Of a stretch of DNA of 64,000 nucleotides, positions 16,899 to 20,998 are shown piece by piece. Source of the DNA: Desulfonauticus submarinus (lineage in GTDB: Bacteria > Desulfobacterota > Desulfovibrionia > Desulfovibrionales > Desulfonatronovibrionaceae); contig NZ_FNIN01000004.1 in assembly GCF_900104045.1 (NCBI RefSeq), positions 1-64,000 on the forward strand, written 5' to 3'. Below the pieces are notes generated by a model that was given only the letters and a program-made list of their open reading frames with translations, did not search any database and was not told where the DNA came from. Position 1 is the stretch's first letter. The number at the start of each line of letters is the position of its first letter. Position numbers and translations under genes: made by a program.

Positions 16899-18689
16899 TC
16901 ACATTTGGAGCCTAAACGTATCAGTTTTGAGCCTATTTTCTAATTTAGCAGCAACAATACTCATAAGATAGCAACAAATAAAATAAAGAAAAGCTACAGT
17001 TGTATAAATTTCAAATGGATAGATCATAAGTCTATTATTTAAACTTTGAGCCACAAAGGTAAGTTCTAATACCCCTATTACATAGGCTAAAGAAGTATCT
17101 TTAAAAATTGCTATAAACTGTCCTACAATAGCCGGGATCATCTGCTTTAGAGCTTGAGGCAAAACTATTTTTCTCATTGTTTGAAAATAATTAAGTCCTG
17201 TGCTGTAGGCTGCTTCAAACTGCCCTAGAGGTAAGTTTTGTATTCCGCCGCGAACTATTTCAGCTAAATAGGCTCCTGTAAAAATAGTTAGGGCAATGGT
17301 AGCGCTCCAAAAGACATTGATATATACTTTAGTAAATATAGGCACAAAAAAGTAAACCCAGAAGATTACCATGATTAAAGGGTTTCCTCTAATTAATTCT
17401 ATATAGAGTAATGCTGGAATACGGAAGAGCCGATATTTGCTAGTTCTTGCAATACCTACAATAAGTCCTATAAAAAAACTTACACTAATTGCGATTACAG
17501 CCATTAAAATAGAAAAAGCAAGTCCTCCAAGCCCCCAAAAGAAATCTCCTGGTTCATTGCTAGGAAATCTCCAAATTAAAAGGTAACGTATATTTTTTTC
17601 TATTATTGTCCAGTTGAGATGGAAAATTCCCATAATTGCTTTATAAAGCAAAAATGATAGAGCCAGTATAAATACGGTTTTAAGACAGAAGCTTGTAATT
17701 TTTTTTGTCCACAACCACAAATTGTACCAGAGTAGTTCCAATTTAGTTTTGCTTGCTTGGGGAGATAACCTGTTTTTCTTAGAGGAAAATAATTGACCTA
17801 TCCAGTTTAATAACTGAAAGATAAAGTCAAAGGGAGAGAATATTGTATAAGCCAGTTTATGTTGCCAAGTTCTTTTTTCTTTAGGTATTATTTGGAGTTT
17901 GGCATTTATTAGATTTAGGATACCAGATATAGTTAGAGATAGTGAAAGATAAATAAAGGTAGCTGCGGTAGTAGCTTCAAAACCTCTAAAGGTAAGAGAT
18001 TCTATTTGTTGGGATTGCCAGCAGAGTTCAGGAACTCCTACTACCATAGCTAAAGATGAGTTTTTCATGTTATTTAGAAATTCGCTCCCTAAAGGAGGGA
18101 TAATGGCTCTAAAGGCTAAAGGTAAGATAATTTTTCTTAAAATTTGAAAATAAGAAAGTCCAGAGGAGTACGCAGCCTCTAAGAGTCCTTTAGGAATAGA
18201 TTGAATACCTGCCCGGATGATTTCTGCCATAAATGCGCCAGTATAAATTGAAAGACCTAACGTAGCACTTAAAAATTCGTAGTTTTGAGAGAATAGAAAT
18301 TGACGCCAACTTTCAGGTAATCCTTGGGGTAGGGCAAAATACCAGAAAAAGAGTTGAACCAATAAAGGGGTATTACGAAAAAATTCCACATAAACTGTGG
18401 AAAAATAATAATAGGGTTTGAAAGAAGAGAGCCGCCCTAACCCAAAAACAACTCCTAACAATAAAGCAAAGGCAGAACTCCATAAAGAAATTTCAACAGT
18501 AAGTTTTAGGCCTTTAATTAAGTAAAAGCCCAGATTTTCTCCATAAGTTTCATTGACTGTATATAGAACAGACCAATCAAACTTATAGCCAAAATCAAAG
18601 ACAAAACCCCAATAATAGACCATTATAAGGCCAAAGAAGATTAGAATAAGATTTTGAGTCCAATTTTTTTCTAAAACATATCTCCACAT
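16899..18689 (-). CDS. Fused double permease of a polar amino acid ABC transporter
   Basis: About 596 residues carrying two complete HisM/GlnP-type permease domains in tandem, roughly residues 30-265 and 360-590, joined by a hydrophilic linker and an extra hydrophobic segment. Each half has its own RN/RGNPL segment (EFFRNTPLLVQ and ELIRGNPLIMV) and its own EAA loop (EAAYSSGLSYFQILRKIILP and EAAYSTGLNYFQTMRKIVLP). These subunits are normally separate proteins of about 220 residues. I start at the ATG at 18689 with GGA seven bases upstream; a GTG at 18701 has no ribosome-binding site. Confidence 0.85.
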   Translation of the reverse strand: MWRYVLEKNWTQNLILIFFGLIMVYYWGFVFDFGYKFDWSVLYTVNETYGENLGFYLIKGLKLTVEISLWSSAFALLLGVVFGLGRLSSFKPYYYFSTVYVEFFRNTPLLVQLFFWYFALPQGLPESWRQFLFSQNYEFLSATLGLSIYTGAFMAEIIRAGIQSIPKGLLEAAYSSGLSYFQILRKIILPLAFRAIIPPLGSEFLNNMKNSSLAMVVGVPELCWQSQQIESLTFRGFEATTAATFIYLSLSLTISGILNLINAKLQIIPKEKRTWQHKLAYTIFSPFDFIFQLLNWIGQLFSSKKNRLSPQASKTKLELLWYNLWLWTKKITSFCLKTVFILALSFLLYKAIMGIFHLNWTIIEKNIRYLLIWRFPSNEPGDFFWGLGGLAFSILMAVIAISVSFFIGLIVGIARTSKYRLFRIPALLYIELIRGNPLIMVIFWVYFFVPIFTKVYINVFWSATIALTIFTGAYLAEIVRGGIQNLPLGQFEAAYSTGLNYFQTMRKIVLPQALKQMIPAIVGQFIAIFKDTSLAYVIGVLELTFVAQSLNNRLMIYPFEIYTTVAFLYFICCYLMSIVAAKLENRLKTDTFRLQM

Positions 18690-18721
18690 AATATTTTCCA
18701 CTGTTAGAAATGTATGTAAAT

Positions 18722-20460: not shown

Positions 20461-20483
20461 AAAAAAGCGGCTTAAAGCCGCTT
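20461..20483 (-). terminator. Rho-independent terminator after tRNA-Arg
   Basis: An 8-bp GC-rich stem (20465-20472 with 20476-20483, loop of three) runs into a T run on the minus strand, 11 bp beyond the CCA end of the tRNA. Confidence 0.8.
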
Positions 20484-20493
20484 AATCTAAAAA

Positions 20494-20570
20494 TGGCCCG
20501 CCCTGAGGGATTCGAACCCCCGACCTGCGGATTCGAAGTCCGACGCTCTATCCAGCTGAGCTAAGGGCGG
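20494..20570 (-). tRNA. tRNA-Arg, anticodon UCG
   Basis: A 77-nt cloverleaf on the minus strand. The acceptor arms CCGCCCT/AGGGCGG pair perfectly, the discriminator is G and the CCA end is encoded. The D arm is GCTCAGCTGGATAGAGC and the T arm is GGGGGTTCGAATCCC. The anticodon loop CTTCGAA gives UCG, reading CGA and other CGN arginine codons. The first anticodon-stem pair is a T-C mismatch. A terminator follows. Confidence 0.96.
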
Positions 20571-20588
20571 AAAATTTTTTGTCTTTTG

Positions 20589-20672
20589 TTATTTTTGGGA
20601 GGTTAATTTAAGTTCTGTAATAATAAGACCTACGGTAAATAATCCTAATAAGAGCATAAATCCACTAAACAT
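20589..20672 (-). CDS. 27-residue single-pass membrane peptide upstream of tRNA-Arg
   Basis: A short reading frame: ATG at 20670-20672, stop TAA at 20589-20591. The sequence opens MFSGFMLLLGLFTVGLIITE and ends LKLTSQK. AGAGGGGG lies six bases before the ATG, a strong ribosome-binding site. The peptide is one hydrophobic helix with a short Lys-containing tail, so it would be inserted with the tail on the cytoplasmic side. Its stop is 18 bp from the 5' end of tRNA-Arg on the same strand, so both are probably on one transcript. In size it resembles small subunits such as KdpF or CydX, but I see no specific motif for either and give no function. Confidence 0.6.
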   Translation of the reverse strand: MFSGFMLLLGLFTVGLIITELKLTSQK

Positions 20673-20998
20673 AAAAAGCCCCCTCTTGTTTAAAAATTTA
20701 ATTTTTTAAAACCAATACATTTTTCTTGTCTAACCTAAACTTATTTTTCCGTAAAGATTTTTGTCTAAAAGTTTAAATTTTAAAGTTTGTCAACTTCTTC
20801 TTCTGATTTCTTCAATTTTCATAGCGATCTCAAATTTGGAGAAGGGGATGAATTCGGATTAATAACTGTTATCAGCCTACAGGTTAGAAGAGAAAGTGGT
20901 TTTTAAGGTGAAGAAATGTTAGTTTTTAAAACAAAGTAATCTAAGGAAAGGTTGTATTCTTAGTTGAAAAGACTTGAAGAAATAGATAAGAAGTTGAA
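20673..20998. other. Intergenic region between the small peptide and the sigma-54 activator
   Basis: AT-rich, 326 bp, between divergent transcripts. On the minus strand a TTGACA box at 20788-20793 with a poor -10 (TTTTAG, 17 bp away) is a possible promoter for the peptide and tRNA. On the plus strand I see no clear promoter or strong ribosome-binding site ahead of the activator gene at 20999. No other open frame with a ribosome-binding site was found. Confidence 0.35.

Follow-up and report, generated by a model that had tools for sequence, protein, structure and literature searches.

Co-transcription of a protein-coding frame with a tRNA has a precedent in Escherichia coli, where Mohanty and Kushner reportedly described in 2008 an mRNA-tRNA transcript comprising secG and leuU. 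The locus considered here lies in a 64,000-nucleotide stretch of Desulfonauticus submarinus DNA that was analysed as a whole (the window). It resembles secG-leuU in that a protein frame and a tRNA would share a transcript from which RNase P releases the tRNA, and it differs in that the frame encodes not a larger, known subunit of Sec, as SecG is, but an orphan peptide of around 30 aa, located 5-60 nt from the tRNA in the genomes that carry the pair. Comparisons can also be drawn with small membrane proteins. TorE and NapE are portrayed in PMC6134056 as small respiratory membrane proteins with a stabilising effect on a larger partner in the membrane, and by analogy with them the present peptide, likewise a predicted small membrane protein, may be an accessory or stabilising one. 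Unlike TorE and NapE, it scores meaningfully against no Pfam family and its gene has no respiratory partner gene beside it. CydX, as presented in PMC5322542, is the second analogue behind this reading. The peptide is similar to CydX/YbgT (PF08173) in length, in its single helix and in its short polar tail, but it does not match the profile. Moreover, its gene is not directly beside cydAB, the neighbours being tRNA-Arg, tRNA-Phe, pcm or other genes, and its distribution does not follow that of cydA.

In the window, the frame occupies 20589..20672 on the minus strand, TAA stop included (ATG at 20672-20670, stop at 20591-20589), and encodes a 27-aa peptide, MFSGFMLLLGLFTVGLIITELKLTSQK, with a single predicted membrane helix. 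A Shine-Dalgarno sequence, AGAGGGGG, was read at 20679..20686 and is separated from the ATG by a 6 nt spacer, CTTTTT. The stop codon is followed by an A/U-rich gap of 18 nt (20571..20588) and then by a tRNA-Arg with anticodon UCG (20494..20570, placed by ARAGORN), 3' of which a terminator scan and RNA folding gave an intrinsic terminator-like hairpin with a U-tail (20465..20483), all on the minus strand. The scan returned one terminator-like site compared with a mean of 0.6 in shuffles. The layout claimed in the initial annotation, namely a 27-codon frame with AGAGGGGG six bases before the ATG, ending 18 nt from a tRNA-Arg(UCG) with which it shares strand and terminator, is thus borne out by the coordinates. 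The single hydrophobic helix that it proposed agrees with a top 19-residue Kyte-Doolittle mean of 2.16, and the tail contains lysines. A similarity search of the D. submarinus genome for tRNA-Arg gave three matches (UCG, ACG and UCU), with UCG found only once. When the RNA of 20589-20690 (minus strand) was folded, for the window alone, the ribosome-binding site could base-pair with an ACCUCCC stretch towards the end of the frame. Antisense to the tRNA there is a frame of 23 aa (20493-20564, plus strand), which is most plausibly spurious.

A first search, using the 27-aa peptide as query against 61 genomes, produced weak matches, most of the best ones adjoining tRNA-Arg. The DNA upstream of tRNA-Arg was inspected at 30 loci, 12 of which, the window's included, encode a relative of the peptide preceded by a ribosome-binding site; at the remaining loci no related peptide was recognized by eye. 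A profile was built from 12 hand-found seeds and then rebuilt from 29 members. It detected the family in 33 of 348 Desulfovibrionales genomes, the weakest accepted E-value being 6e-9; the next match (E 0.0018) fell inside a 466-aa frame and was dropped. The class-level and order-level searches each comprised 348 genomes, and when a sample of 395 genomes from the phylum was searched, the genome of the window alone gave a match. As far as searched, the family therefore appears restricted to four Desulfovibrionales families. Within the 348 genomes, the profile found no member in the groups f4 and f5 or in the genus g2, indicating that any function is dispensable or replaceable. The exact DNA pattern of peptide plus tRNA matched four stretches among the contigs of 84,980 species, labelled Desulfomicrobium, Desulfovibrionales, Desulfonauticus and 'Proteobacteria bacterium'. 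None of ten members tested reached a cut-off in Pfam or NCBIfam, the PDB yielded a chance-level match only, and the open-licence literature returned no paper on the peptide by title, listing or peptide strings. A phage origin was rejected after a search of 50,697 phage records with a 32-aa homologue gave nothing at E<=10.

In order to compare synonymous and nonsynonymous change, as the initial annotation had advised, we used 10 non-overlapping pairs of genes, some of which share tree branches and so are not fully independent. Synonymous changes numbered 85.7 at 221.2 sites and nonsynonymous changes 51.3 at 720.8 sites, giving a pN/pS of 0.18 in frame, whereas the other two frames of the same DNA gave 1.18 and 2.36. 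Changes were distributed over codon positions 1, 2 and 3 as 38, 12 and 87. Four genomes of the putative Desulfomicrobium group, g14 (G052, G044, G061 and G062), encode an identical peptide with 3-9 synonymous changes per pair. The frame is, on these counts, under purifying selection. Pairs within the window's own genus are strongly diverged (dN 0.40-0.47), and the ratio of 0.62 in the close pair G048-G058 rests on three changes. Conservation of the frame was the point on which the proposal of an overlooked membrane-peptide gene could have failed, and it withstood the comparison: taken together, the 33 carriers among 348 genomes and the purifying selection strongly support the view that the frame is a real, conserved gene of a predicted small membrane protein missed by annotation.

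Members of the family are 27-34 aa long and consist of a short N-terminus, a single hydrophobic stretch of membrane length and a polar tail, with the consensus MFsGlILxlGLxxvGLIxyxLxkEHGPxxxx. A structure model of the 32-aa homologue contains a single helix at residues 3-25 (mean pLDDT 87.5). In most members the tail begins with E-H-G, and His is often found at its end. The EHG motif, and with it the hallmark EHGP tail, is missing from the window's genus; because of this and the high divergence within that genus, the window copy is, judged by its sequence, an atypical branch of the family. All 25 genomes inspected have a site of the GAGG/GGAG/GGGGG type before the start codon, which reads AGGAGG in 16. 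The single hydrophobic helix of membrane length and the conserved coding are the features of a small single-pass membrane protein. We infer that the peptide inserts into the inner membrane as a single helix, with the tail probably cytoplasmic as suggested by its lysines, and that its role in a larger membrane complex, encoded elsewhere, may be that of an accessory or stabilising subunit. By analogy, a role as accessory subunit or stabiliser of an inner-membrane complex is the most likely one; the argument relies on analogy since no partner gene is constant across the loci. In kind the protein is ordinary; as a family it is new, and it adds to the protein-family libraries searched an order-specific group of membrane proteins of about 30 aa that they do not contain.

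The same peptide was sought upstream of tRNA-Arg in relatives, as the initial annotation had suggested, and was found there: in 18 of the 33 carriers a tRNA-Arg(UCG) follows on the same strand, with gaps of 5, 5, 8, 9 (six times), 12, 16, 18, 18, 22, 24, 32, 59 and 60 nt, 15 of which are no longer than 24 nt. Five carriers have instead a tRNA-Phe at 77-213 nt downstream, without tRNA-Arg, and ten have no tRNA within about 1.5 kb downstream and show other neighbours there, often pcm. Loci of f1 and f3 often have a divergent gene for a TolC-like outer-membrane efflux protein upstream (two were confirmed as OEP), and those of f2 and f6 are accompanied by rnc and a sulfotransferase-family gene, or by MgtE, and often by pcm. 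No single neighbour gene is constant across the carrier loci, so the neighbours do not reveal a partner. Phage-integrase genes are located 3' of tRNA-Arg(UCG) in two relatives (L060:235-1329 and L054:1728-2819), from which it follows that this tRNA gene is probably an island attachment site and that integration there spares the peptide gene upstream.

Gaps down to 5 nt make co-transcription the simplest reading, and it seems likely from the arrangement that peptide and tRNA-Arg belong to one primary transcript: in the 18 tRNA-Arg-bearing carriers, frame and tRNA share a strand, and the space separating them could hardly, if at all, accommodate a promoter or terminator. The transcript would start ahead of the peptide, and RNase P cleavage at the tRNA 5' end would leave a short mRNA ending just past the stop codon. 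Consistent with such a start, 11 of 13 g14 genomes contain a promoter-like site matching the consensus (TTGAA[GC]-17 nt-TATNNT) that ends 34 nt before the ATG, eight of them with the tRNA and three without; of the exceptions, G048 has a site at another position and G058 has none there. A promoter within the frame is conceivable, the best internal match being 9/12, in G005. On the minus strand of the window a standard scan detected no promoter-like site, and the best match in a laxer scan was 8/12. The coupled expression with the tRNA that had been proposed for this locus is therefore likely from the anatomy of the 18 carriers and the g14 site, but the window itself provides no convincing promoter.

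The tRNA neighbour is common but, across the carriers, not obligatory, 15 of 33 having no tRNA-Arg behind the peptide. Whole-genome similarity searches found no UCG tRNA-Arg in seven of these (G028, G060, G063, G048, G058, G024 and G070), while the same search succeeded in both controls, G067 and G000; the seven show an ACG tRNA-Arg and five of them also CCU. Some lineages thus appear to have lost the tRNA and kept the peptide. In the close relatives G063, G028 and G060, a decayed tRNA-Arg at the syntenic place is only a possibility: the syntenic alignment is suggestive, but its score was reached by 87, 23 and 7 of 500 shuffles, respectively. The corresponding counts for G048 and G058 were 352 and 179 of 500, and for G024 and G070 they were 0 of 500, a result uninformative on tRNA-Arg as the 180 nt tested enter the tRNA-Phe gene. 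Given the 15 carriers in which no tRNA-Arg follows the peptide, a functional tie between the two is not supported and the peptide would be a protein in its own right rather than a tRNA leader. Its persistence where the tRNA neighbour is absent suggests a job independent of the tRNA. The explanation that best accounts for the locus as a whole, and in which we have reasonable though far from complete confidence, is that of a real single-pass membrane protein, likely co-transcribed with the tRNA and with a tRNA-independent job, presumably as an accessory part of a membrane complex.

The gap lengths invite a different reading, in which the frame serves as a leader: its translation, ending near the tRNA, would block or aid RNase P, and the peptide would be incidental. 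A distance of about 24 nt is roughly the reach of a terminating ribosome, and the 15 gaps up to that length, together with the promoter-like site upstream of the frame in g14 genomes, are in its favour. We nevertheless regard it as unlikely: it is the amino-acid sequence that is conserved and not the frame alone, as the ratio of 0.18 indicates, and tRNA-Arg is missing behind the peptide in almost half of the carriers (15 of 33). An arginine-sensing leader peptide was rejected, 31 of the 33 peptides being without arginine. A quite improbable addition to the favoured membrane-protein reading is that terminating ribosomes, positioned 5-24 nt from the tRNA in most tRNA-bearing carriers, gate the cutting of tRNA-Arg(UCG) by RNase P. 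Were it true, the synthesis of a membrane protein would set the supply of one tRNA. The usual place of the gene, within ribosome reach of the tRNA 5' end, offers a clean natural case for studying the interplay of translation with RNase P, and short genes are worth looking for in tRNA leaders.

Other readings accept a peptide but assign it differently. A small subunit of cytochrome bd oxidase, similar to CydX but divergent and unlinked, would have about the right length, one helix and, in a feature of most members reminiscent of CydX, an acidic residue with His next after it close to where the helix ends. It would also fit that canonical CydX (PF08173) exceeds the cut-off in none of 61 relatives, that the window's own genome has no small frame of at least 24 aa right after cydB on the operon strand, and that cydA (E<1e-40) occurs in 24 of 26 carriers compared with 25 of 35 non-carriers. 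Those 25 non-carriers, however, have cydA without the peptide, and the carriers G027 and G031 (94% and 84% complete) have the peptide without cydA; PF08173 is listed for none of ten members, a search of the PDB set with the profile yielded no CydX chain, and there is no consistent cyd neighbour. In G047 the peptide is followed, about 1 kb further on, by a cydA match, a pcm-like frame lying in between. After the Pfam, PDB, cydA co-occurrence and own cyd operon tests, CydX was not supported and we consider this assignment rather improbable. Size and hydrophobicity would equally suit a type I toxin, and one of ten members gave a sub-threshold match to the NCBIfam Fst model; at 12.4 bits, where the cut-off is 26, an Fst-type toxin was rejected. 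The gene is present as one copy, in syntenic position in two families, is under strict purifying selection and has good ribosome-binding sites, and no antisense antitoxin gene was noticed in the course of the other analyses; a toxin-like peptide of this type is very improbable. That short frames are common (48 of at least 20 aa overlap a 4.5-kb stretch) could suggest a chance open frame, yet codon-level conservation across four families speaks against it, and the purifying selection across 33 genomes leaves this reading hardly credible and effectively ruled out.

Elsewhere in the window, a single 600-aa frame at 16899-18701 contains two BPD_transp_1 stretches and corresponds to a fused amino-acid ABC permease, preceded on the same strand by genes for a solute-binding protein and an ATPase.
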